Of a DNA stretch of 64,000 nt, positions 1,566-49,262 are shown in pieces. Source of the stretch: Bryobacterales bacterium (GTDB lineage: Bacteria; Acidobacteriota; Terriglobia; Bryobacterales; UBA6623); contig JAPPMG010000003.1 of the NCBI GenBank assembly GCA_028819215.1, positions 1 through 64,000 on the forward strand, written 5' to 3'. Position 1 is the first letter of the stretch. Every line of letters begins with the position of its first letter. Both the position numbers and the translations under genes were made by a program. Under the pieces are notes generated by a model. It saw nothing but the letters and a program-made list of their open reading frames with translations, searched no databases and was not told the origin of the DNA.

Positions 1566-1621
1566 ATGCACTCGCGCGGAGAGCGCGCTAGGCAGGCCTT
1601 TCGGGTAAGCATTGCGGATGT

Positions 1622-1627
1622 TAGACT
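1622..1627 (+). promoter_or_regulatory. -10-like hexamer TAGACT just before a sulfatase
   Basis: TAGACT ends 7 nt before the ATG at 1635, which would put the transcription start at or next to the start codon. No clear -35 or ribosome site is seen. Confidence 0.35.
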
Positions 1628-1634
1628 CGCTCTC

Positions 1635-3059
1635 ATGCCTGCGATAGATCGTCGCGAGTTCCTGGCGGCCGCATCAGGCGCTGCCACGATCAGTGTCGGC
1701 TGCGAGACCGCGAAGGCCCCGACCAACATCCTCTTCGTCCTCGCGGACCAATGGCGCAGCAGCGCCTTGGGCAGCGGTTCGGACGCGGTCGTGCGTACAC
1801 CGCATATCGACGGCCTGGCCGCTGAAGGCGCGAACTGGCAAAGGGCTTACGCCGCAAATCCGGTTTGCACGCCCAACCGAGCGTGCATCCTGACCGGGCG
1901 CCATTCTCATCAGACAGGCATGGTCCGCAACGACATCCAGCTGCCGCCGCAAGAGGTCTGCTGGCCGGAGCTGCTGCGCAGCGCCGGCTACGCCACGCAC
2001 TACGTCGGCAAATGGCATCTGGATGGCCCGCCCAAGCCCGGCTATGTGCCGCCCGGCTGGAGACGGAGGGGCTTCGCAACGTTTGAAGGATTCAATCGCG
2101 GGCATATCTACCACAGGCACTGGGGCTTCGACGACAGCGGCGAGCCGCTGGCTCAGATCGCCGCCGGCCTGGACCCGTACTACGAACCGACGCTGCAGAC
2201 GAGTCTGGCGATCGACTTCATGCGCCGCAACCAGGCCCAGCCCTTCGCCTGCTTCCTCTCCTGGGGGCCGCCCCACACGCCGTTCCGACCGCCGGACGCG
2301 CACGATCTCTACGAGCCTGGCGAGATCGTCCTGCGCGGAAACGTACCCGCGGAGCACGAAGCGCAGGCGCGCAAGGATCTGGCCGGCTACTACGGCCTGT
2401 GCGAGTCGCTCGACCACGAGATGGGACGGCTCCTGGCATTCCTGGACGAGAGCGGCCTGCGCGACAACACGCTGTTGATCTTCACGTCCGACCACGGGGA
2501 ATTGGCCGGTTCGCACGGCAAGTACCGCAAGGGGGAGCCCGAGAGCGAGTCGCTCCAAGTTCCGCTCATGATGCGGCTGCCGGGACGCATCGCAACCGGG
2601 TCAGCGCCGGAGACCCTGATCAGTTCCGTGGACCTCATGCCCACGCTGCTCTCGCTGTGCGACTTGCCGGCCGCGGACACCTGCGCCGGCTCTGACCTGT
2701 CCGGCGCCGTGACGCCGGGCGGAACGGCTCCGAGCGTCGAATCGGTCTATTGCGAGGGCAAGGTATTGAACTCACCCGAGCTGAAGCCAGGCACGAACAG
2801 CCCCGATGCCCGCCCGTGGCGGTCGCTTGTGACCGCGCGCTACAAGCTGAACGTCCGCGCCGACCACTCGATCGTCGATGGATTGTTCGATCTGCAAGAG
2901 GACCCGCTGGAATTGCGCAACCTCGCAAACGCGGTCGAAGCACGCAGCTTGCAGGGTGACTTGCTGGCCGAGCTCAAGGCTTGGGGGCAGAGGACTGGCG
3001 ACCCCTTCCCTGCTGCCCCGGAGCCAGCACGGGAGCAATACGAAAGCGACGAAGGCTAG
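1635..3059 (+). CDS. Exported sulfatase, Cys-type
   Basis: A 474-residue type I sulfatase that hydrolyses sulfate esters. The formylglycine signature is C78-T-P-N-R, within 'NPVCTPNRACILTGR', so maturation needs a formylglycine-generating enzyme. The metal-site pattern 'ILFVLADQ' follows the signal region, and 'FTSDHGELAGSHGKYRKG' is the second conserved block. The start at 1635 was preferred over the upstream in-frame ATG at 1566 because 'DRREFLAAASG...ISVGC' right after it looks like a Tat-type leader with a lipobox (C23), so a membrane-anchored periplasmic lipoprotein is likely. A TAGACT hexamer lies just upstream. Substrate is not readable from sequence. First of four sulfatases in the region. 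Confidence 0.9.
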   Translation: MPAIDRREFLAAASGAATISVGCETAKAPTNILFVLADQWRSSALGSGSDAVVRTPHIDGLAAEGANWQRAYAANPVCTPNRACILTGRHSHQTGMVRNDIQLPPQEVCWPELLRSAGYATHYVGKWHLDGPPKPGYVPPGWRRRGFATFEGFNRGHIYHRHWGFDDSGEPLAQIAAGLDPYYEPTLQTSLAIDFMRRNQAQPFACFLSWGPPHTPFRPPDAHDLYEPGEIVLRGNVPAEHEAQARKDLAGYYGLCESLDHEMGRLLAFLDESGLRDNTLLIFTSDHGELAGSHGKYRKGEPESESLQVPLMMRLPGRIATGSAPETLISSVDLMPTLLSLCDLPAADTCAGSDLSGAVTPGGTAPSVESVYCEGKVLNSPELKPGTNSPDARPWRSLVTARYKLNVRADHSIVDGLFDLQEDPLELRNLANAVEARSLQGDLLAELKAWGQRTGDPFPAAPEPAREQYESDEG

Positions 3060-3124
3060 GCATCTCCTGCAAGGGGCAGATCCAACCCTCGGCGCAAGCT
3101 TGGCTCTGCTACAGTTTCCTACTT

Positions 3125-4186
3125 ATGAAGGTTCCAGAATTGAGCCGCAGGGCGTTCGCCGCCGCAGCGGCCACCGCCTTGGCATCCCCGGTGCGCGGCC
3201 TTGCTCAGCGTGACTGGACGAACGTCACGCCGACGAGGTATCCCGATCCCGATATCGTCTCGCTAGACCCGCGATTCAACAAGTACAAGCTCGGCAACAC
3301 TCCCATCCAACGCCTGCATGTCGGGACGCTTTGGGCCGAAGGGCCAGCTTGGAACACGGTCGGCAAGTACCTGGTTTACTCCGACATTCCCAACAACGTG
3401 CAGTTACGCTGGCTCGACGAAGACGGCCATGTGAGCGTGTTCCGCCACCCGTCAGGCAACTCGAACGGCAATACGTTCGACTGGCAGGGGCGGCAGCTGT
3501 CGTGCGAGCACGGCAATCGCCGCATCGTCCGCTACGAGTACGACGGCAGCGTCACGGTGCTGGCCGACAGCTGGCAGGGCAAGCGGCTCAACGCCCCCAA
3601 TGACGCGGTTGTGGATCCCGACGGGAACATTTGGTTCACCGATCCGGGATACGGCAGCCTGATGCACTACGAGGGCAACAAGGGGCCGCTGGAGATCAAG
3701 GAAGCGGTCTACCGCATCGACGGCCAGAGCGGAACAATGGAAATGGTGACCGACGAGATCTTCAAGCCGAACGGATTGTGCTTCTCGCCCGACTACAAGC
3801 TGCTCTATATTGCTGATACCGGGGCTTCGCACTACCCGGAAGCCGAGCGCGAGATCAAGGTCTGGGACGTGGACAACGGGCGTAACCTGCGCAACGGCAG
3901 GCGCTTCGTCTCGATGATGATGGACGGCTTCGAGCAGGCCGGCAACGCCGACGGCATCCGCTGCGACACCGACGGCAACATCTGGTCCTCGGCTGGCTGG
4001 GTCGGCGACGGCTACGACGGGGTGCACGTGTTCGCGCCAGACGGTGACCGCATCGGCCTGATCAAGCTGCCGGAGATCTGCTCCAACGTGTGTTTTGGGG
4101 GCGTCAAGCGCAACCGCTTGTTCATGACGGCAAGCCAAAGCCTCTACGCCGTATACGTGGAAGCGCAGGGAGCGCACATCACTTGA
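3125..4186 (+). CDS. SMP-30/gluconolactonase-like beta-propeller, exported
   Basis: A 353-residue protein of the SMP-30/gluconolactonase/LRE-like family, six-bladed propellers that hydrolyse sugar lactones or related esters. Family-like motifs are 'EGPAWNTVGKYLVYSDIPNN', 'NAPNDAVVDPDGNIWFTDPG', 'KPNGLCFSPDYKLLYIADTG' and 'ADGIRCDTDGNIWSS', which carry the expected metal-binding Glu, Asn and Asp positions. The start at 3125 gives 'LSRRAFAAAAATALASPVRGLAQ', a Tat-like signal peptide with an AQ cleavage site, so the protein is periplasmic. A TACAGT hexamer lies 9 nt before the ATG and no clear ribosome site is present. It sits between two sulfatases, which suits sugar-acid lactone processing during glycan breakdown (inference). 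Confidence 0.88.
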   Translation: MKVPELSRRAFAAAAATALASPVRGLAQRDWTNVTPTRYPDPDIVSLDPRFNKYKLGNTPIQRLHVGTLWAEGPAWNTVGKYLVYSDIPNNVQLRWLDEDGHVSVFRHPSGNSNGNTFDWQGRQLSCEHGNRRIVRYEYDGSVTVLADSWQGKRLNAPNDAVVDPDGNIWFTDPGYGSLMHYEGNKGPLEIKEAVYRIDGQSGTMEMVTDEIFKPNGLCFSPDYKLLYIADTGASHYPEAEREIKVWDVDNGRNLRNGRRFVSMMMDGFEQAGNADGIRCDTDGNIWSSAGWVGDGYDGVHVFAPDGDRIGLIKLPEICSNVCFGGVKRNRLFMTASQSLYAVYVEAQGAHIT

Positions 4187-4209
4187 TCCCGCGGCGGCGC
4201 TGCTAGAAT
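4183..4209 (+). promoter_or_regulatory. Promoter of selC
   Basis: TAGAAT at 4204-4209 ends 8 nt before the first base of the mature tRNA, the expected place for a -10 box. TTGATC at 4183-4188 could be the -35, with a short 15-bp spacer. The -35 overlaps the end of the lactonase gene. Confidence 0.5.
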
Positions 4210-4217
4210 CGGGCAAC

Positions 4218-4312
4218 GGAAGCTAATCCCGGCCGGTGTCGGGCCCGGTCTTCAAAACCGCTGTTTGGCGCTCCGCGTCAAGGGTGGGTTCGACTCCCAC
4301 TAGCTTCCGCCA
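4218..4312 (+). tRNA. selC: tRNA-Sec (anticodon TCA)
   Basis: A 95-nt selenocysteine tRNA including the encoded 3' CCA. Seen directly: an 8-bp acceptor stem (GGAAGCTA with TAGCTTCC), a 6-bp D stem with a 4-nt loop (CCCGGC/GTCGGG), the anticodon loop CTTCAAA with TCA at 4252-4254, a long variable arm with a 7-bp stem (TTGGCGC/GCGTCAA), and a 5-bp T stem (GTGGG/CCCAC). The 8+5 acceptor-T stack and extended D stem are the bacterial tRNA-Sec hallmarks. The upper anticodon stem has one C-C mismatch. It implies selA, selB and selD elsewhere in the genome. I found no selenoprotein gene inside this window. Confidence 0.96.
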
Positions 4313-4351
4313 CCAGCCCGGGCCCAGACGCCCCGCCCGACCAAACCTGCC

Positions 4352-5836
4352 ATGGCAAGCCGCCCGAACGTCCTGCTCATCTCAACGGACCACTGGCCCG
4401 CCGAACTGCTCGGCGAAGCAGGCCATCCCGACATCCTTACGCCTACCTTGGACGAGCTGGCGCGTAGCGGCGTCCGCTTCCGCAACGCCTACGGTGAGTG
4501 CCCAGTGTGTATCCCGGCGCGGCGCACGCTGATGACGGGTGTCAGCCCGAGGACGCACGGCGATCGCGATTTCGGCGAGACGAAGCCGATGCCAGACCTG
4601 CCGACCATGGCCCAAACCTTTCGTGAGGCAGGCTACCAAGCCAATGCGGTGGGCAAGTTGCACGTCTACCCGCAACGGAACAGGATCGGCTTTGACGACG
4701 TGATCCTTGATGAAGAAGGACGCACGCAATACGGTGTGGTCGACGACTACGAAGCGTTCCTAGCCGATCAGGGCTACGCGGGGAGACAGTTCGACCACGG
4801 CATGAGCAACAACGACTACGCCACCCGACCGTGGCACCTGCCGGAGGAGCTGCACGCCACGAATTGGGCGACCCAGCAGATGGTTCGCACCATCAAGCGC
4901 AGGGACCCGGGCAGGCCGGCGTTTTGGTTCCTCTCGTACAGACACCCACACCCGCCGATCGTGCCGGTAGCGACGTACCTGGAGATGTACAAGAACAGCG
5001 AGCTGCGCTGGCCCACGCAGGCGATGTGGTGCCGCGAGGAACTGCCGTACTTGCTCCAAGCGATTCGCGGGCGCGCGGCTCACATGGGACCGAAGCAGAT
5101 CCAAGAGGCGCTGCAAGCCTTTTACGCACTCTGCACGCACATCGACCACCAGCTCAGGGTGGTTATCGGGACCCTGCGCGAAGAGGACCTGCTCAAGGAC
5201 ACAGCGATCTGCTTTACGTCCGATCACGGCGACATGCTGGGGCGGCACGGCATGTGGGCCAAGCGGCTCTTCTACGAGCCGTCAGCGAATATCCCGATGA
5301 TCTTGGCCGGCCCGGACGGAGACCGGCGCGTAGGCCACCACCGCGTCGACGACCGCTTGGTCGGGTGGCAGGACGTGATGCCGACCCTGCTAGATCTGGC
5401 CGGCATCGACGTGCCCGACAGTGTGGAGGGCTTGTCAATGGTCGGCGAGCGCGAGCGAGACTGGCTCTATGGCGAGGTCGGCGAGCGTGAACATGCTACG
5501 CGCATGATTCGCAAGGGGCCGCACAAGCTCATCTACTACCCGGCCGGCAATACGAGACAGCTGTTCGACGTGGAATCCGACCCGGCCGAAATCACCGACC
5601 TCTCCGGCCGGCCTGAGCACGAAGCTCTGCTGGAGGAGCTGACCCAGCTATTGGTCGGCCAGCTCTACGGCGGCGACGAAGAATGGGTGCGAGACGGCAA
5701 GCTGGTTGGCCTGCCCAACCGGGAGTTCAGGCCGGGACCGAACCGGGGCCTGTCAAGCCAGCGCGGGCATCATTGGCCCCCGCCGCCGAAGACGGACATG
5801 CGGCAGATTCAATGGCACAACGAAGATGAGGCCTAG
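4352..5836 (+). CDS. Sulfatase without signal peptide, Cys-type
   Basis: A 494-residue type I sulfatase. The protein begins directly with the first beta strand and metal site (MASRPNVLLISTDHW), and no signal peptide is visible, so it is probably cytoplasmic, unlike the other three sulfatases here. The formylglycine signature is C53-I-P-A-R within 'CPVCIPARRTLMTG'. Later blocks 'SYRHPHPPIVP' and 'CFTSDHGDMLGRHGMWAK' fit the family, and the latter resembles choline-sulfatase/arylsulfatase-type members. It starts 39 nt after selC and may have its own promoter. The cytoplasmic location suggests it acts on small imported sulfated sugars or phenols (inference). C-terminal ~40 residues are polar and unassigned. 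Confidence 0.9.
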   Translation: MASRPNVLLISTDHWPAELLGEAGHPDILTPTLDELARSGVRFRNAYGECPVCIPARRTLMTGVSPRTHGDRDFGETKPMPDLPTMAQTFREAGYQANAVGKLHVYPQRNRIGFDDVILDEEGRTQYGVVDDYEAFLADQGYAGRQFDHGMSNNDYATRPWHLPEELHATNWATQQMVRTIKRRDPGRPAFWFLSYRHPHPPIVPVATYLEMYKNSELRWPTQAMWCREELPYLLQAIRGRAAHMGPKQIQEALQAFYALCTHIDHQLRVVIGTLREEDLLKDTAICFTSDHGDMLGRHGMWAKRLFYEPSANIPMILAGPDGDRRVGHHRVDDRLVGWQDVMPTLLDLAGIDVPDSVEGLSMVGERERDWLYGEVGEREHATRMIRKGPHKLIYYPAGNTRQLFDVESDPAEITDLSGRPEHEALLEELTQLLVGQLYGGDEEWVRDGKLVGLPNREFRPGPNRGLSSQRGHHWPPPPKTDMRQIQWHNEDEA

Positions 5837-5996
5837 CATCGCGGGCCCGGCAGTCGCCGCCCGCTGACGTGATTCGTCGTTCGTCCCTGAGGCAATCAGA
5901 CTCCGTTGCCGAGCCCGGCATCAGGCAACGGCGCGTGTTCAGGCGAAACGGCGCAGAGGCCGTCCTGGGACGTGACAGGATCTCGCGAGACCGAGC

Positions 5997-7634
5997 CTAA
6001 GGCCCGACCCTGTCGATCCGCTCCGCTCCGAACAACGTCCAGCCCGTATCAGGTCGATCGCCCTTCATCACAATCTCGTACACCACCTCGGGCGGGTCCG
6101 CGCGCTTGTACTCGCGCAGCCGGGTCCACTGGGTGAATTGCTGCCTAGATCTGGACTCCCACCCGACCTTGCCCAAGGAGTCCGGATCCAGCAGAGCGCC
6201 GTACGCAACCAGCACGTTCTCCGTCGATGGCAGCCAGTCCACGTCTCCCATCGCGATGGAAATCACCCGATCAGGCCCCATGACTTCCGACTGCCATAGC
6301 TGTCGCGCGGTCATGGCGTCGCCATCGACTGCGTACTCGACGGCCCTGGTGAATGTGTCAGTGACGGCACTGGGCTTGCGGAACGGCCGCGCTTGGTAAT
6401 TGCCGTTGTCGAAGATCATCAGCGTCCCGTTAGGAGTCGGCTGAGGCGAGTGCTGATGGTAGGGCCACTGCAGATCCCCTTCGGCCTCGAGGAGCTTGTC
6501 AGACAGATCGCCCCAACCGCTTGGCTCGCCGAAGATCCAGACGATCTCCTTGGACTGGCGGTCGATCTTCATCGCGGCCGCCTGGTAGCGGAAGTTGACG
6601 ACAACGGAGTCGTCCGCCGGATCGTAAAGCAGGTTGTTGGCGTGGCTCCAATCCACCGTGTCAGCGAAGCCCCGCCGGACCCAATAGTTCGAGAACGTCT
6701 CGTAGCCGATGCGGAACGGATCCATGTGGTCGAAGGCCTTCCATTCCCACACGATGTTGCCCGTGTCGCGTTCGAACTCCACGATCACGTCGCCCATCAC
6801 CTTCTGCCGCTTGCGCGGCGCGTTCTCGTCGTACTCGCTGGTGTAGTAATCGTCGATCTCCCTAGCCTCGGCGCTGAGGACCAAGATATTTCCGCTCGGC
6901 ATCTCGTCGATCTCGTGATGGAAGGTGAGCGTGTCAACGGCGATACCATCGGTCGCCCCTTGCGGGCGGCCGGTCGCATACCACTGATTCACGGTGTTTC
7001 CGAGCCAATCGATCTCTATCAGCCGGAAGTCCGCAGTGACGAAGATCAGGTTGCCGTTGCTCAGCTTCTCGAAATCGCTGATCCGTGAGTCCACCTTGTA
7101 GTACCAGACCACCTCCCCGGCAGAATCCAGTGCCGCCAGCATGCCGAAGCCGGCATTGAAATCGGCCACGTCTTGACCGCGCCCGACCCTGCGCCTGCGG
7201 GGGTTGAACAGCGTGACTCCCGGCTCCATCTCGCCAGGCTTGCTGACCGCAACTTCGATGGGCGGGAATTCGACACCCGATTCAGGTGGCGGCGGCGTTT
7301 GGAACTCAAGCACATCGGGGGACTGAACCGGTGCTCCGTCGCCGGAACGGATCGAGACGCGGACCTCGTGCCGGCGGTCCGGCCGCATGCCGACCACGGC
7401 CAGGCCCCTGCTCGGGTCGTGCTCCGGACCGTACTCGAGCTGCCACGCGTGGTCTCCGTCGGTCACGTCGATCAGTGCGGTCACCGGGACAGACGCCTCA
7501 AACTCCAGCACCGCCGCAAGAGGCACGGCTGGGTTCGGGTTCGGCTTCAGCACAGGCCCGGCTAGAAACGATGGGGGCTGCGAACACGCGCCCGCGACGA
7601 TCACGGTCGCGAGCAGCGCAACCGACTTCAACAT
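5997..7634 (-). CDS. Arylsulfotransferase (ASST-type) lipoprotein
   Basis: A 545-residue arylsulfate sulfotransferase-like protein. ASST enzymes move a sulfuryl group from a phenolic sulfate to another phenol without PAPS, in the periplasm, through a His intermediate. Family blocks seen are 'TFHHEIDEMPSGNILVLS', 'DWSHANNLLYDPADDSVV', 'NFRYQAAAMKIDRQSKEIVW' and 'HQHSPQPTPNGTLMIFDNGN', carrying three His and one Arg at expected positions. The start at 7634 was chosen over 7661 because AAGGAGGCG directly precedes it. It is followed by a lipoprotein signal ending 'VIVAGAC'. N-terminal ~130 residues look like an Ig-like/fibronectin-like domain. It is divergent from the sulfatase at 7814. Confidence 0.85.
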   Translation of the reverse strand: MLKSVALLATVIVAGACSQPPSFLAGPVLKPNPNPAVPLAAVLEFEASVPVTALIDVTDGDHAWQLEYGPEHDPSRGLAVVGMRPDRRHEVRVSIRSGDGAPVQSPDVLEFQTPPPPESGVEFPPIEVAVSKPGEMEPGVTLFNPRRRRVGRGQDVADFNAGFGMLAALDSAGEVVWYYKVDSRISDFEKLSNGNLIFVTADFRLIEIDWLGNTVNQWYATGRPQGATDGIAVDTLTFHHEIDEMPSGNILVLSAEAREIDDYYTSEYDENAPRKRQKVMGDVIVEFERDTGNIVWEWKAFDHMDPFRIGYETFSNYWVRRGFADTVDWSHANNLLYDPADDSVVVNFRYQAAAMKIDRQSKEIVWIFGEPSGWGDLSDKLLEAEGDLQWPYHQHSPQPTPNGTLMIFDNGNYQARPFRKPSAVTDTFTRAVEYAVDGDAMTARQLWQSEVMGPDRVISIAMGDVDWLPSTENVLVAYGALLDPDSLGKVGWESRSRQQFTQWTRLREYKRADPPEVVYEIVMKGDRPDTGWTLFGAERIDRVGP

Positions 7635-7813
7635 CGCCTCCTTCGAAGTAAAGGTCTCCATAGCTTCAAGATACTCATTCGACCGAGGAGCCTTGCACCC
7701 CGCTCGGGCGTCACCGCGGGAAGCTGCGCGCTAGCGACGAATCGAACTGGCGCTCAAGGCCGACTGCCGAGCGGTCCTCTCAGATACACTCGTGGGCGGG
7801 CGAGGCAACGCAA

Positions 7814-9580
7814 TTGCGACCAACGACATTCGCACTGGCGGCACTCGGCGTGGCAAGTCTGCTCGCCGGGGCCGAAACGAAGCCGAACATCGTGCTGATC
7901 GTCACCGACGACCAGGGCTGGTGGGACCTCGGGATACATGGCAACCAACAGATCGAAACTCCGAATCTGGATCGGCTGGCAGCAGAGTCCGTCGAACTGA
8001 CACGCTTCTATGTCCAGCCCGTTTGCGCTCCTACGCGAGCGGGCCTGATGACGGGCCGCCACTACCTGCGCACTGGTCTCTACAACACCCGCTTCGGCGG
8101 AGACACTCTCCACCTCGGCGAGCAGACTCTCGCCGAAGCGCTGCGTCGGGCCGGCTATCGGACTGGGATCTTCGGGAAGTGGCACTTGGGAGAGTACCGC
8201 CGCTTCCATCCGGACCAGCGTGGTTTCGACGAGTCGGTCTTCTTCTCGGCGGGCCATACGGAACGCTACTGGGAGCCGGACGCGCTGCTGAAGAACGGCC
8301 ACCCGGTCAGCGTCAGAGGACACATCACCGACGTGCTGACAGACGCGGCATCTACGTTCGTCCGGGCGACGCGAGACCAGCCGTTCTTCCTGTACCTGTC
8401 CTACAACGTCCCGCACTCGCCCCTGCTGGTTTCCGACGCCCTGCACGAGAAGTACCGCGCGAAGGGCGTCGGCAGCAACGATGCCCGCATCTATGGATTG
8501 GTCGAGCAATGCGACGCGGCGATCGGGCGCCTACTCGGTGTCATCGACTCGGCCGGCCTCGAGCAGAACACCGTGGTCCTGTTCATGAGCGACAACGGCG
8601 GCGTCAGCCGCCACTTCCGCGCCGGCCTGAGAGGCGGCAAGGCGTCGGTCTACGAGGGAGGCGTGCGGTCGCCATTCTTCGCTCGGTGGCCGGGGCGATT
8701 CGAGGCGGGCCGCAAGACCGACGCTAGGGGGTCCCACTTGGACCTGTTCCCTACCCTGCTCGAGATCGCGGGCGGCGAGGCACCATCGGAACGCGCGCTT
8801 GACGGCAAGAGCCTGCTGCCGCTGCTGACCGGCGCAACGGACGATAGCCCGCACGAGCGGCTGTTCCATATCTGGGACCGGCACGCGCCCAGCATCGAAT
8901 CGCGCTGGGCAGTCGCGGGCCCCAAGTACAAGCTTGTCGGGAACGAACTGTACGACCTGGAGGCGGACCCCGGCGAGCAACGAGACATCGCCGCCCAAGA
9001 GCCGGCCATCGCCGCGGCACTGCGACAGGAGTTCACGGATTGGCTGGCCGACGCAACTGAGGGCAGGACCTTCGAACCCGTCGCGATTCCGGTGGGCGAT
9101 AGGCTGGAGGATCCGATCGACCTGTGGCCGAGCTGGGCGCGCCACAAGGGGCAGCACGCGAGCGTCACCCAACTGCGACACCGGGGTCCAGTGCCGCCAG
9201 CTCCGCTCGGCAGCCGCCCGGTCGAAGAATCCACCGTCTATACGTTCGGCGGGTACTACTGGGACACGATCGAGGGGTGGAAGGAGCCGGGCGAGTCCGT
9301 AGCTTGGAAGATCGATGTCGCTGAGGCCGGCGAGTACGAAGTCGTCTTGGTGTACGGCTGCGACTTGGACGACGCGGGCGGGGAGTTCGCGGTAAGCATC
9401 GCCGACGACGAGCTGCGGGGCACGGTGAAGCCGACTCCGGGCCGCACGTTCTTCGAGGCCCATCGAGTCGGAACGCTGCATCTCCCCGAGGGCGTCACGG
9501 AAGTCCGGGTCCGGGTCTTGAGTTCAACGGGCAGGGACTTGATGGCTCTCAATCGGGTTCGTATCCGATCGGTCCGTTAG
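7814..9580 (+). CDS. Exported sulfatase with C-terminal beta-rich domain
   Basis: A 588-residue type I sulfatase. Residues 1-20 are a Sec signal peptide (MRPTTFALAALGVASLLAGA). The metal site 'PNIVLIVTDDQGWWDLG' and formylglycine motif C71-A-P-T-R follow, then 'FMSDNGG' and 'GLRGGKASVYEGGVRSPFF', typical of arylsulfatase A-like enzymes. Residues ~465-588 form an extra domain with 'SVAWKIDVAEAGEYEVVLVY' that looks like a beta-sandwich and may bind substrate. The start codon is TTG, with a GGGCGAGG ribosome site upstream. A TACACT hexamer at 7785-7790 could be its -10. It is divergent from the sulfotransferase, with ~180 nt between starts. Confidence 0.88.
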   Translation: MRPTTFALAALGVASLLAGAETKPNIVLIVTDDQGWWDLGIHGNQQIETPNLDRLAAESVELTRFYVQPVCAPTRAGLMTGRHYLRTGLYNTRFGGDTLHLGEQTLAEALRRAGYRTGIFGKWHLGEYRRFHPDQRGFDESVFFSAGHTERYWEPDALLKNGHPVSVRGHITDVLTDAASTFVRATRDQPFFLYLSYNVPHSPLLVSDALHEKYRAKGVGSNDARIYGLVEQCDAAIGRLLGVIDSAGLEQNTVVLFMSDNGGVSRHFRAGLRGGKASVYEGGVRSPFFARWPGRFEAGRKTDARGSHLDLFPTLLEIAGGEAPSERALDGKSLLPLLTGATDDSPHERLFHIWDRHAPSIESRWAVAGPKYKLVGNELYDLEADPGEQRDIAAQEPAIAAALRQEFTDWLADATEGRTFEPVAIPVGDRLEDPIDLWPSWARHKGQHASVTQLRHRGPVPPAPLGSRPVEESTVYTFGGYYWDTIEGWKEPGESVAWKIDVAEAGEYEVVLVYGCDLDDAGGEFAVSIADDELRGTVKPTPGRTFFEAHRVGTLHLPEGVTEVRVRVLSSTGRDLMALNRVRIRSVR

Positions 9581-9696
9581 ATTTCTTCCGGCAGGCCCGG
9601 CGGCTGAGCCGTCTGCTGTTGGCGCGGCGTCATCCGCGAACGTGATCCGCTGGAGCCCCTTCCAGCGAGTAGCGCCGATGCCTGGAACGACGCGGA

Positions 9697-11526
9697 TCAA
9701 TTTCGTCCGCCGATGCAGGAGGAGTCGGTTGGCGGGCACAACGAAGACGAGTCCGTTCCTCGAACCTTCGTGATCAGGCGCTCGACTTCAACGTAGTAGG
9801 CTCCCCCCAGCAGGTTCCCGGCATCGTCAAAAAACCAGCTCTGAATCTGCGTTTCTCCCGGACTCAATTCGGTTTCAAAGACCACTTCCCGGTCATCCCT
9901 TCCGACTCGCTGGCGTAGTTCCAGATTGCCGATCCGCAGCCGGGCCTGGGCGATCGGCAAGCTCTTGCCAGCCATCAGGTCTCCGTATTCGCCGTGCAGC
10001 GGCGGGGCCGGGTCGCGCAAGCCGAGGCCGGACTCCTTCGGCCAGCGACGCAGCGAGACCCGATAGCGGCCCGCCTGCTCGACTCGGACGCTCCACGGCC
10101 CCGACAGGGCTTGGCCACCCCGCACGCAGCCCGGATTGTCGCAGTAGACCCCGTTCCAATCCGAGGCGCTTAGCCGCGCCGGATTCTCGGCGGCCGCGCC
10201 AACGGCGATGGGCTGATACGCCTCGGCCGCCGGCATGAGCTCGTCCCACCATTGCTCGTAGTGGGCCCGCATCTTCGCAGCCGTGTCGGAAAACTCCTCG
10301 CTGACATCCTCAGTCTGTCCCGGATCCTTGCCAACGTCGTATAGCTCTTTCCCATTGACCAGGCGCCATTTGTTCCACATCACCGCTGCGTCGCGGTGTT
10401 TTTCGAACACTCCGCCGTACTGTACGACCAACATGCGGTCGCTCAGATCCTGCTCTTCACCCCGCAACAGCGGCGCAAGGCTGACCCCGTCGAAAGCCGC
10501 ATCCGACGGCGCCTCCACCCCTGTGAGCTCAAGCAGTGTCGGCAGGACGTCCTGCACGTGCGTGAGGGCTTCCACGTCACGCGGCGCCCCGATATCGCCC
10601 GCCGGCCAGCGCAAGAAAAGCGGTACGCGGTGGCCGCCGTCGTACAGAGACCTCTTCTTGCCGCGCATCCCCGCATTGAAAACAGTCTCGCCCTGCGCTG
10701 TCCCGTTGTCACCGAGGAAAACGAAGATCGTGTCGCGGGCGATGCCCAACTCGTCAAGAAGCGCGGTCAGCCGACCCATGTTCTCGTCAATCGAGGCGAT
10801 CATCCCGAAGAACTTGGCGATTCGGGATTCGACTTTCCCCAGATACGGGTCGATGTACTCTTGCGGCACCCAGAGCGGCACGTGCGGAGCGTTAGTGGGC
10901 AAGTAGACCAAGAACGGCTTCTCGTCGCGAGCCTGGCGTCGGATCCACGCCATCGCCTCTTCGAACCAGACGTCAGTGCAGTAGCCGGCGTACTGCTCGA
11001 TGCGGCCGTTGTGGCGATAGTGATCGTTGAAGTAGTCGTTGCCGAAATAGTCGGCCAACGACGTGATCCCCCAAGCACCGTGGTGCACGGTCTCTTGAAA
11101 CCCTCGGTCTTGCGGGCGAAACGGGTGGTTGTCGCCGAGGTGCCACTTGCCGAAGTGCCCCGTCGCATAGCCGGCACCGCGGAAGATCTGCGCCATTGTG
11201 GGCAGTTCCTCGCGGATCAGTGACCGGCCCATGCACACGAACGAAGCACCGTTGTCAATCGCGTCCCGCCCGGTCAGCAACTGGCCACGGCTGGGGGTGC
11301 ACATGGGCGCAACGTGGAAGTCGGTGAATCGAACGCTCTGCGAGTGGAGCTTGTCTAGGCTGGGTGTCTTGAGCACGGGATTTCCGTGCGCAGAGAGGTC
11401 GCCGTAGCCCTGATCGTCGGTCATCACCACGATCACGTTCGGCAGTGCAGCGGATGCTGTCGAGGCCATCGCTGTAACGACGGCACAGCTCAAGAGTGCA
11501 GCACGTACGTGCCAGGAACCTAACAT
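9697..11526 (-). CDS. Exported sulfatase with C-terminal beta-rich domain
   Basis: A 609-residue type I sulfatase. It starts at 11526 (AGGGAG ribosome site ~9 nt upstream) rather than the in-frame ATG at 11688, which gives a Sec signal peptide ending 'STASA'. The metal site 'PNVIVVMTDDQGYGDLSAHG' is followed by C76-T-P-S-R in 'PMCTPSRGQLLTGRD', then 'FLGDNGTAQG' and 'GMRGKKRSLYDGGHRVPLFL'. The C-terminal ~150 residues hold a second domain ('WSVRVEQAGRYRVSLRRWP') resembling the tail of the convergent sulfatase at 7814, so the two are probably related. The last ~20 residues are polar, Ser/Cys-rich and unassigned. Confidence 0.88.
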   Translation of the reverse strand: MLGSWHVRAALLSCAVVTAMASTASAALPNVIVVMTDDQGYGDLSAHGNPVLKTPSLDKLHSQSVRFTDFHVAPMCTPSRGQLLTGRDAIDNGASFVCMGRSLIREELPTMAQIFRGAGYATGHFGKWHLGDNHPFRPQDRGFQETVHHGAWGITSLADYFGNDYFNDHYRHNGRIEQYAGYCTDVWFEEAMAWIRRQARDEKPFLVYLPTNAPHVPLWVPQEYIDPYLGKVESRIAKFFGMIASIDENMGRLTALLDELGIARDTIFVFLGDNGTAQGETVFNAGMRGKKRSLYDGGHRVPLFLRWPAGDIGAPRDVEALTHVQDVLPTLLELTGVEAPSDAAFDGVSLAPLLRGEEQDLSDRMLVVQYGGVFEKHRDAAVMWNKWRLVNGKELYDVGKDPGQTEDVSEEFSDTAAKMRAHYEQWWDELMPAAEAYQPIAVGAAAENPARLSASDWNGVYCDNPGCVRGGQALSGPWSVRVEQAGRYRVSLRRWPKESGLGLRDPAPPLHGEYGDLMAGKSLPIAQARLRIGNLELRQRVGRDDREVVFETELSPGETQIQSWFFDDAGNLLGGAYYVEVERLITKVRGTDSSSLCPPTDSSCIGGRN

Positions 11527-11693
11527 CGAACGAATCTCCCTATCGCCCCACCCTACCAAGGAGGCAGGCTCCCTGCTCGGAGCCAGTCCCCGGGGATCGG
11601 GCCTCTCGCCGGTCCCGGAAGCGGCGCGCCACGGCTTCGCCGGCGATCTGGAACATCTGGCTCCAAAACACGAAATTGTCCGCGCCACCCAGA

Positions 11694-11699
11694 TATACT
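11694..11699 (+). promoter_or_regulatory. -10-like hexamer TATACT before a Gfo/Idh gene
   Basis: TATACT ends 6 nt before the ATG at 11706, so the predicted transcription start coincides with the start codon. TTGTCC at 11676-11681 is too close to be a normal -35. Confidence 0.4.
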
Positions 11700-11705
11700 C
11701 ACGGC

Positions 11706-12917
11706 ATGACTCGAAGGAACTTTGTCGTCGGCAGCGGAATGGCTGCCCTCGGTGCCACGCGCACCCTCGGCTCGAACGACCGGATCGGCGTCGGGATCAT
11801 TGGCTGCGGGCGAAGGAACCTGCTCGGGCAAGTGCTCGAGTTCCAGGAGCGCTCCAACGCCGAGGTGCGCGCGGTTTGCGACATCTGGCAAGCCCAGCGC
11901 GAAGCCGCGGCCGCAAGGGTCAAAGACTCGGCAGGAAACGCTCCCGCCCAAGTGCACGACTACGAGGACTTGCTCGCTCGCGAGGATATTGACGCGGTCA
12001 TCATCGGGACGCCGGACCACCAGCACTGCAGGCAGCTCATCGACGCGACGCGAGCAGGCAAGGACACGTACGTCGAGAAGCCGCTCGCGATGGATCTGAA
12101 GGAGCTGAAGAGGGCTTATGACACGGTCAAGGCTTCAGATCGCGTCGTGCAGATGGGAACCCAGGTGCGCAGCTTTCCGTCCTCCGGAGCAGCCCGCGCA
12201 TTCGTCCAAGCAGGTGGCTTGGGCGATATCTTCAAGATCGAGCAATCGCGCAACTCATACAGGCCGTACTGGTATCGGTACGCAGAGCGCCGCTTGCACG
12301 AGAGCGACACCGACTGGCGGCGCTTCCTGATGCACCGCAAGCCCAGACCGTGGGATCAGCAGCAGTACGCGGGATGGTTCGGCTACCGGGATTTTTCGCA
12401 AGGCCCGCACAGCAACCTCGGCGTCCACTTCTTCGATCTGGTCCACTACGTGACAGGGGCGGGTCCACCCGCGCGTGCCGTCACGATGGCGGGTGGATTC
12501 CGCTGGAACAGGGACGGCTTCGACGTTCCCGATTCCGTGGAGACAACCTTGGAGTATCCGAAGGAGGGCTTTCTTGTCCGGTATTGCTCAACGTTCGGCG
12601 TCCGCGGGAATAGCTACTTGAAGTTCTTCGGATCTCGCGGTGAAATGGACGCGACGCGCTGGGGAGATCCGTTCGTTATCAGCGGCAATACCGTGGAAGA
12701 CGATGACCGGATTCGCGAGGGCGAGACGATCGGAAACGCCGAGAGCGTGCCACACATGCTCAACTTCCTGGAGTGCGTCCGCACAAGGCAGACCCCGAAC
12801 GCTCCGATCGAGGCCGGATACAACCACTCGATCGCAGCGATCCTTGCCGACGAAAGCTTCGTTCGAGGCAGCCGAGTGGTATACGACGCGGGCAAGAGAA
12901 AGATTCGCGAAGGCTAA
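11706..12917 (+). CDS. Gfo/Idh/MocA-family oxidoreductase with Tat signal
   Basis: A 403-residue NAD(P)-dependent sugar oxidoreductase-like protein. The Rossmann motif 'IGVGIIGCGRRNLLG' lies at residues ~27-41 and the family's catalytic/nicotinamide 'E124-K125-P126' is present in 'TYVEKPLAMDL'. A short Tat-like leader (TRRNFVVGSGMAALGATRTL) precedes the Rossmann fold, so the protein is probably exported folded with its cofactor bound, as known for Tat-dependent relatives such as glucose-fructose oxidoreductase. The start at 11706 was chosen because the leader begins there and TATACT lies just before it; the reading frame is open further upstream. It lies between a sulfatase and a hydrolase, fitting glycan or sugar-acid conversion; substrate unknown. 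Confidence 0.87.
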   Translation: MTRRNFVVGSGMAALGATRTLGSNDRIGVGIIGCGRRNLLGQVLEFQERSNAEVRAVCDIWQAQREAAAARVKDSAGNAPAQVHDYEDLLAREDIDAVIIGTPDHQHCRQLIDATRAGKDTYVEKPLAMDLKELKRAYDTVKASDRVVQMGTQVRSFPSSGAARAFVQAGGLGDIFKIEQSRNSYRPYWYRYAERRLHESDTDWRRFLMHRKPRPWDQQQYAGWFGYRDFSQGPHSNLGVHFFDLVHYVTGAGPPARAVTMAGGFRWNRDGFDVPDSVETTLEYPKEGFLVRYCSTFGVRGNSYLKFFGSRGEMDATRWGDPFVISGNTVEDDDRIREGETIGNAESVPHMLNFLECVRTRQTPNAPIEAGYNHSIAAILADESFVRGSRVVYDAGKRKIREG

Positions 12918-48715: not shown

Positions 48716-49000
48716 TCAACGGTAGCCCCACTTGCGGAAGGTGGCCTGAAGTCCGGGATCATGCTGGAACGCTCGGTAGTAGACATACTCCGGTGCCAGA
48801 TCCGCTCCGTTGGGCCATACGATCGTCCGAAGCTCTTCGTCGACCCGCAAGGCTCTGAACACGTCCGGATCCTTCAGCGGCTCGAACATCGGCCCGTGCA
48901 GCGCCTCCAGCAAGTCCGCGACGCCTTGGCGACCGTCGTCGAAGCACACTTCCACCTTGAAGCCATCAAGCGCTCTTGCACTCGTCACATGAAGGAACAT
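48716..49000 (-). CDS. DUF2442 protein
   Basis: A 94-residue DUF2442 protein. The core 'YKVEV' style strand is seen as 'LDGFKVEVCFDDGRQGVADL', followed by the conserved 'VDEELRTIVWPNGADLAPEY'. DUF2442 genes are often paired with DUF4160 genes in toxin-antitoxin-like cassettes, and here the DUF4160 gene ends 4 nt before this start, with a GGAG ribosome site inside it. Biochemical function is not established. A second, separate DUF2442 gene is found at 60584. Confidence 0.85.
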   Translation of the reverse strand: MFLHVTSARALDGFKVEVCFDDGRQGVADLLEALHGPMFEPLKDPDVFRALRVDEELRTIVWPNGADLAPEYVYYRAFQHDPGLQATFRKWGYR

Positions 49001-49004
49001 CGAG

Positions 49005-49262
49005 TTACTCCAGCGGCTCGATGGGATTCGGCGCTTCCTTCCGGCGACACCGTTCCCAGTTGGCCAGAAGCTCGTCCTGGTGCAACTCGTGCCACTCCAT
49101 CACATGCCGCAGGGCCCGCTTCGGAAACCGACCCTCCACCGCCCCCGTGGCGATTTGAACGATGATTTCATACTCCCCGTACTTCGCGTGGAAGTGGGCG
49201 GGAACGTGATCATCCCAGTACATCGCGATTACGATTCCGAGGAATCTACTGACAACCGGCAT
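49005..49262 (-). CDS. DUF4160 protein
   Basis: An 85-residue DUF4160 protein. It starts at the ATG of 'MPVVSRFLGIVIAMYWDDHV', the family's usual N-terminus, and continues 'PAHFHAKYGEYEIIVQIATG' with the conserved His-x-His pair and 'RFPKRALRHVMEWHELHQDE'. Together with the DUF2442 gene 4 nt downstream it forms a two-gene unit. The His/Tyr pattern could be catalytic, but that is inference. Upstream in another frame is a damaged coiled-coil-type gene (49263-49509). Confidence 0.86.
   Translation of the reverse strand: MPVVSRFLGIVIAMYWDDHVPAHFHAKYGEYEIIVQIATGAVEGRFPKRALRHVMEWHELHQDELLANWERCRRKEAPNPIEPLE

Follow-up and report, generated by a model that had tools for sequence, protein, structure and literature searches.

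A Single-Copy tRNA-Sec Gene in a Sulfatase Region of a Bryobacterales Genome and the Candidate Selenoproteins That It Probably Serves

Structure of the selC gene

The stretch of DNA analysed here (hereafter the window) comprises the first 64,000 nucleotides of contig JAPPMG010000003.1 from a Bryobacterales bacterium of the phylum Acidobacteriota (assembly GCA_028819215.1). On its forward strand, ARAGORN called a tRNA-Sec(TCA) gene, selC, at positions 4218-4312. The initial annotation had described an intact tRNA-Sec at this place, to be doubted should a covariance model score it poorly; the RF01852 model matched positions 4218-4308 with 71.2 bits (E 1.4e-12), against an Rfam gathering score of 47. 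When the 5.86-Mb genome (103 contigs) was scanned with the same model, nine matches were returned and selC alone exceeded the gathering score, the second-best match reaching 46.4. The cut-off was passed in 5 of the 14 control genomes and is therefore not fully specific, so that the structure of the tRNA was weighed too.

The 5' arm of the acceptor stem (4218-4225, + strand, as for all parts of the gene) pairs with 4301-4308 at 8/8 positions. In the D arm (4228-4243), the centroid fold and the pair count give a 6-bp stem with 6/6 positions paired and a loop of four bases. The anticodon arm (4244-4262) carries TCA at 4252-4254 and has a 4-bp stem with a C-C and a C-T mismatch above it. It is followed by a long variable arm (4265-4281), which forms a hairpin of seven pairs with a TCC loop in the centroid fold, and by a T arm (4284-4300), whose 5-bp stem, supported by the RF01852 alignment and the fold, results in an acceptor domain of 8+5. 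The discriminator base is G, and the CCA end is encoded at 4310-4312. Taken together, these features confirm that 4218-4312 is a bacterial tRNA-Sec gene, as first proposed.

Comparison with relatives revealed perfect acceptor and D stems in 39/39 distinct sequences. The anticodon stem has four pairs in all six distinct sequences from the 11 genomes of the genus and five pairs in the other 33 (5 from the family and 28 from the order). As the four-pair stem is fixed in the genus while the other stems are perfect, it is best read as a tolerated change. According to PMC7609411, the anticodon arm is not a binding site for any enzyme that acts on tRNA-Sec.

A predicted extended -10 promoter

A -10 box, TAGAAT, lies at 4204-4209 on the + strand and ends 8 nt short of the tRNA; with the TGC directly in front of it (4201-4203), it has the arrangement of an extended -10 element. 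A doubtful -35-like hexamer, TTGATC (4183-4188, +), is separated from it by a 15-nt spacer and shares bases with the stop codon of the preceding gene. A consensus promoter scan, which needs a spacer of 16-18 nt, reported no promoter at selC.

To place these elements among relatives, 50 selC loci were reduced to 46 distinct upstream sequences; 30 of the 50 were the best-scoring RF01852 loci and thus not a random sample. Counterparts of the -10 box, defined by at least 5/6 matches to TATAAT with A2 and T6 required and a start 9-18 nt upstream of the tRNA, were present in 38 of the 46, compared with 0.7 on average and at most 3 in 500 shuffles, and 29 of these 38 had TGn before the hexamer. The -35-like hexamer showed no conservation among the selC loci of relatives. 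The -10 box and TGn are thus kept while the -35 element is weak and not kept, so that selC is predicted to have, likely, an extended -10 promoter. The promoter of its own that had been assigned to selC stands as far as the conserved -10 box is concerned; its -35 part is weak and not conserved, and promoter activity is a prediction.

Gene neighborhood and the sulfatases

Upstream of selC lie genes for a TonB-C protein, a sulfatase and an SMP-30/gluconolactonase-like protein (3125-4186, +; PF08450). Downstream, a sulfatase gene (4352-5836, +; PF00884) starts 39 nt after selC and is followed by an arylsulfotransferase-like gene on the opposite strand. With sulfatases both upstream and 39 nt downstream, the location of selC in a sulfatase region was rightly recognized; the SMP-30 gene and the downstream sulfatase gene themselves fall outside the Sec system. 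In all, four sulfatases and the arylsulfotransferase-like gene are found within 11 kb (1566-12917 of the window), and Gfo/Idh/MocA and PQQ-type genes lie beyond this cluster.

Our analysis uncovered a sulfatase gene immediately 3' of selC in 10/10 relatives of the genus. The SMP-30 gene was immediately 5' of selC in eight of the ten and was 1.4 kb away in genome G254 and 2.6 kb away in G249. In G241, which belongs to another genus of the same family, selC is also adjoined by a sulfatase gene, 75% identical. No sulfatase gene was found next to selC at G242, G245 or G246, and the G244 sequence ends soon after selC; G246 has a 26% match to the window's other sulfatase near selC.

A functional link between selC and the sulfatases is not supported: the adjacency was not seen at G242, G245 and G246, and 0 of the 10 TGA sites of the window (see below) lie in a sulfatase frame recognized by Pfam. 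We take the adjacency to be inherited gene order, in which the sulfatases would not be users of the tRNA and transcription would perhaps be shared. That selC and the sulfatase 39 nt downstream are made on one transcript is a tentative addition, compatible with the main reading and in our view rather unlikely: the two genes share a strand and are separated by 39 nt, no terminator-like site was found within 4000-4500, and the sulfatase adjoins selC in all ten genus relatives and in G241, but the three other genomes named above do not show the adjacency.

The selenocysteine machinery

The absence of selA, selB and selD from the genome had been named in the initial annotation as the finding that would speak against its reading. 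The genome, rated 98.98% complete and 1.71% contaminated, encodes all three, each above its NCBIfam cut-off and without internal stops: SelA on contig C36 (TIGR00474, 516 bits; cut-off 268), SelB on C85 (TIGR00475, 378 bits; cut-off 242) and SelD on C92 (TIGR00476, 297 bits; cut-off 125).

SelD makes up the C-terminal portion of a protein of 752 residues (own genome, G000, contig C92, L019:1387-3645, - strand). The N-terminal part of this fusion matches TIGR03169 (496 bits; cut-off 310), a known SelD-linked oxidoreductase domain. Against TIGR04369 ('fusion_not_SelD') the fusion scored 492 bits, under the cut-off of 700. Read by eye, the usual Sec site of SelD is a Cys here; the motif of this site is given as UxxK in PMC13188914.

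Candidate selenoproteins

Users of the tRNA were searched for with family profiles read through stops, covering the FdhA, AhpC-TSA, AhpD-type, SelW-like and deiodinase-like families. One of the five FdhA matches in the genome, on contig C41, has a single in-frame TGA, and so do three of the 20 AhpC-TSA matches (C45, C35 and C61) and one of the three AhpD-type matches (C39), while TAA or TAG occurs inside 0/28 of these matches. The frames of the five genes are open on both sides of the TGA. Each TGA coincides with an active-site position: in FdhA it lies in CNRT-U-HAPS, so that the site reads UHAP and fits UHxP; in two peroxiredoxins, PrxA and PrxB (C45 and C35), in TGG-U, fitting TxxU; in the Prx-like protein (C61) in U-PFC, fitting UxxC; and in the AhpD-like protein (C39) in CHY-U, fitting CxxU. 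These four patterns are listed as motifs of known selenoprotein families in PMC13188914.

The AhpD-like protein passes TIGR01926 (140.1 bits; cut-off 81.8). Pfam AhpC-TSA recognizes all three peroxiredoxin-type proteins, which stay below the cut-offs of the NCBIfam models that they matched. SelW-like proteins (PF10262) had no match in the genome. Deiodinase-like proteins (PF00837) had none either, a result that does not by itself establish absence, as the control genomes were silent too. A second FdhA-like gene of the same genome (G000 contig C90:27381-29447; frame of 922 aa) has no internal stop and scored 593 bits against a cut-off of 666; it is perhaps a Cys homologue or a relative of nitrate reductase.

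The initial annotation had seen no obvious selenoprotein next to selC and had placed the users elsewhere. The window and the rest of its contig were scanned for a TGA with a stem of at least 6 pairs and at least 40 open codons on each side, settings that shorter genes could escape. The scan returned 16 rows representing 15 sites (one site lies in two overlapping loci), 10 of them in the window. In a Pfam scan, nine of these ten matched nothing; the tenth encodes a DUF2442 domain (residues 81-153), but its TGA corresponds to residue 43, which is not part of that domain and lies 38 residues ahead of it. None of the ten is therefore a credible selenoprotein. The other five sites of the contig were judged by eye only. 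At 48719-49228 of the window (- strand), a DUF2442 domain is encoded opposite a listed ORF. The five genes with TGA and hairpin all lie on other contigs, and both statements thus hold.

SECIS-like hairpins

All five user TGA codons (5/5) are followed by a hairpin whose stem has six or more pairs and whose loop of 3-6 bases has G in its first two bases and starts 16-30 nt downstream of the TGA. In 13 stretches of the same genome, counted on both strands, 289 of 5602 TGA satisfied this rule; two of the stretches overlap by 9 kb, so that some TGA are counted twice. The comparison is indicative only, because the hairpins were already known when the rule was drawn up. Two TGA presumed to be true stops fail the rule.

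Among relatives, the peroxiredoxin sample consisted of 31 loci, all among the best matches, with 31 sites (none fitting the search pattern in L189 and two in L184), which without duplicates represent 21 genes with Sec and 9 with Cys. The hairpin occurs in 21/21 Sec peroxiredoxins, with six pairs in 19, five in one and four in one; none of the nine Cys peroxiredoxins has four or more of its pairs. One pair of the peroxiredoxin hairpin is C-G in 12 genes, U-A in 8 and U-G in 1, and the exchange of C-G for U-A replaces Gly by Asp on one side of the stem, whereas the codon on the other side encodes Tyr either way.

For FdhA, 51 of 55 loci fitted the pattern and gave 42 distinct sequences. The hairpin codons GTC, GGT, CTG and GCG are identical in 41 or 42 of the 42, whereas silent sites just outside vary, and in L105 a C-G pair is swapped to G-C on both sides. 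Compared with shuffled sequences, the FdhA hairpin is not unusually stable (z 0.03 for 49 nt and -1.44 for 34 nt). The case for this putative SECIS element is carried by the comparative evidence, not by the shuffle z-scores.

Distribution across the order

A search of the order, with a limit of E 1e-9 and at most 16 candidates scored per genome, found selC in at least 194 of 257 genomes, at least 132 of the 163 good ones and at least 66 of 84 genera; these counts are lower bounds because of both limits. The selC described here is an ordinary one, and the gene is common in this order.

The 19 best FdhA matches of the order, that of the own genome included, have one TGA each, and 18 of the 19 genomes with such a close TGA-containing FdhA have a selC match, the exception, G106, being 72% complete. 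Among lower-ranked FdhA matches, TGA also occurs in G217 and G144. FdhA-like genes with an internal TAG (G112:C251:2803-4803) and TAA (G149:C113:5950-7854) were also observed and are perhaps broken genes or assembly errors. Within the genus, the close FdhA of 10 genomes retains the TGA, as does the best peroxiredoxin match of 11/11.

Co-occurrence with the peroxiredoxin was evaluated for the genomes among the matches listed (138 of the 203 matching genomes). Among these, 95 of 115 genomes with a TGA peroxiredoxin and 15 of 23 with Cys only had a selC match (Fisher p 0.085), which is no significant link between selC and TGA peroxiredoxin on that test. The 20 of 115 listed genomes with a TGA peroxiredoxin and no selC match (e.g., G119, G236 and G107) may reflect a selC that escaped the search, incompleteness of the genome or divergence of the tRNA, given the limits of the search.

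A split formate dehydrogenase with a predicted selenocysteine

The FdhA gene with the in-frame UGA belongs to a split formate dehydrogenase locus (G000 contig C41, L028:7642-12446) composed of the TGA gene, a NuoE-NuoF fusion gene and an Fe-S gene. The catalytic gene has 639 codons and starts directly after a stop codon. Its product scored 634.8 bits against TIGR01591, under the cut-off of 666.25, and covers model positions 50-672; positions 1-49 are missing because they are encoded on another gene. This part, the Fe4S4 domain (PF04879), forms the end of a separate 320-residue protein encoded two genes downstream, which also has 2Fe-2S and further 4Fe-4S domains, and the NuoE-NuoF fusion is encoded between the two.

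The FdhA is 95-97% identical to five records of Bryobacterales or Terriglobia bacteria (L096-L099 and L101); several such genomes come from sponges. The split build was found in 33 of 36 named loci (L096-L131), in records titled Acidobacteriota, Actinomycetota, Eremiobacterota or unclassified. The frame upstream could be checked in 31 of the 33 and has no Fe4S4 motif; the remaining two (L115 and L128) begin inside the catalytic gene and are followed by the Fe-S gene. In the 32 of the 33 where it is readable, the Sec site is TGA (32/32). A NuoE-F gene follows in 32/33, at a distance above 2 kb in L108, L115 and L129. The Fe-S gene follows in 29/33, the sequence ending first in L108, L117, L122 and L123. 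The usual fused subunit is present in L125, L126 and L130, with Cys, Cys and TGA, respectively.

These loci lead us to favor, with some reserve, a model where a chief user of selC is a distinct, laterally spread Sec formate dehydrogenase in which the Fe4S4 domain has moved to a HoxU-like electron-transfer subunit encoded downstream of NuoE-NuoF. If this is true, different polypeptides would carry the molybdopterin site and the iron-sulfur cluster closest to it, and the enzyme could interest workers on CO2-reducing enzymes. A thin search of the literature turned up no description of a split Sec formate dehydrogenase, and no novelty is claimed on it.

A model for UGA decoding

Computation established selC with its stems and -10 box, the other sel genes, the genes combining UGA with a hairpin, and their conservation. 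On these grounds we hold it very probable, with little doubt left, that this is the functional single-copy selC of a Sec-decoding bacterium of the Bryobacterales (Acidobacteriota), with machinery and users encoded elsewhere in the genome. On the other side stand the 20 genomes of the order with a TGA peroxiredoxin and no selC match, the unremarkable stability of the FdhA hairpin, the four-pair anticodon stem, and the scores of FdhA and the three peroxiredoxin-type proteins below their NCBIfam cut-offs. The earlier suggestion of probable UGA decoding as Sec in this organism gains support from SelA, SelB, SelD and the five UGA-hairpin genes. Charging, delivery, recoding and expression are what we infer from them, as follows. 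SerRS would charge the tRNA with serine, and SelA (C36) would convert Ser-tRNA to Sec-tRNA using selenophosphate from SelD (C92). SelB (C85) would then bring Sec-tRNA to UGA codons that have a SECIS hairpin downstream, and the users would be at least FdhA (C41), the two TxxU peroxiredoxins (C45 and C35), the UxxC Prx-like protein (C61) and the CxxU AhpD-like protein (C39).

A tRNA that resembles tRNA-Sec and serves another amino acid, either a selC* tRNA-Cys or an allo-tRNA(Ser), with UGA read as Cys or Ser, is a very improbable alternative. A long variable arm and a long acceptor stem are common to such tRNAs, and allo-tRNAs have been reported from Acidobacteria, according to PMC7609411; the weak anticodon stem is also unusual. 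The same paper describes U73 in selC* tRNA-Cys, against the discriminator G found here, and 12-bp 8/4 or 9/3 acceptor domains in allo-tRNAs, against 8+5. The presence of SelA, SelB and SelD, and of UGA at known Sec positions with SECIS-like hairpins, argues further for selenocysteine. Slightly less probable still is an intact selC left as a relic of a Sec system out of use: one anticodon-stem pair is indeed lost and the loss fixed in the genus (6/6 distinct sequences), but the acceptor and D stems are perfect in 39/39, the five TGA genes have an open frame to either side of the TGA, and 10 genomes of the genus retain TGA in the close FdhA and all 11 in the best peroxiredoxin match.

Very probable decoding of UGA as Sec in this lineage, with its computational support, means that gene callers would tend to shorten its selenoproteins, of which five likely ones are named here. 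The order also offers a natural comparison of Sec and Cys peroxiredoxins, in which the candidate SECIS hairpin appears and disappears together with UGA.

Comparison with known systems

The type of bacterial tRNA-Sec is E. coli selC. The tRNA described here shares with bacterial tRNA-Sec (RF01852) the 8+5 acceptor domain, the 6-bp D stem, the 4-base D loop, the TCA anticodon, the long variable arm and the G discriminator, and it differs in the four anticodon-stem pairs of its genus. As in the bacterial SelA/SelB/SelC/SelD trait (PMC1794560), the four components occur in one genome together with UGA genes and hairpins. Unlike in that trait, the sel genes are here on four contigs, without a selA-selB-selC cluster, and FdhA is on a fifth.

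The split enzyme resembles NAD-linked metal formate dehydrogenases, which have NuoE, NuoF and NuoG-like parts, in its UHAP site, its molybdopterin domains, its NuoE-NuoF fusion and its 2Fe-2S and 4Fe-4S electron path; the fusion resembles FDH1 of Methylobacterium extorquens. In contrast to those enzymes, the alpha subunit is here cut after the Fe4S4 domain, the halves are swapped around the NuoE-F gene, and the catalytic half has UGA.
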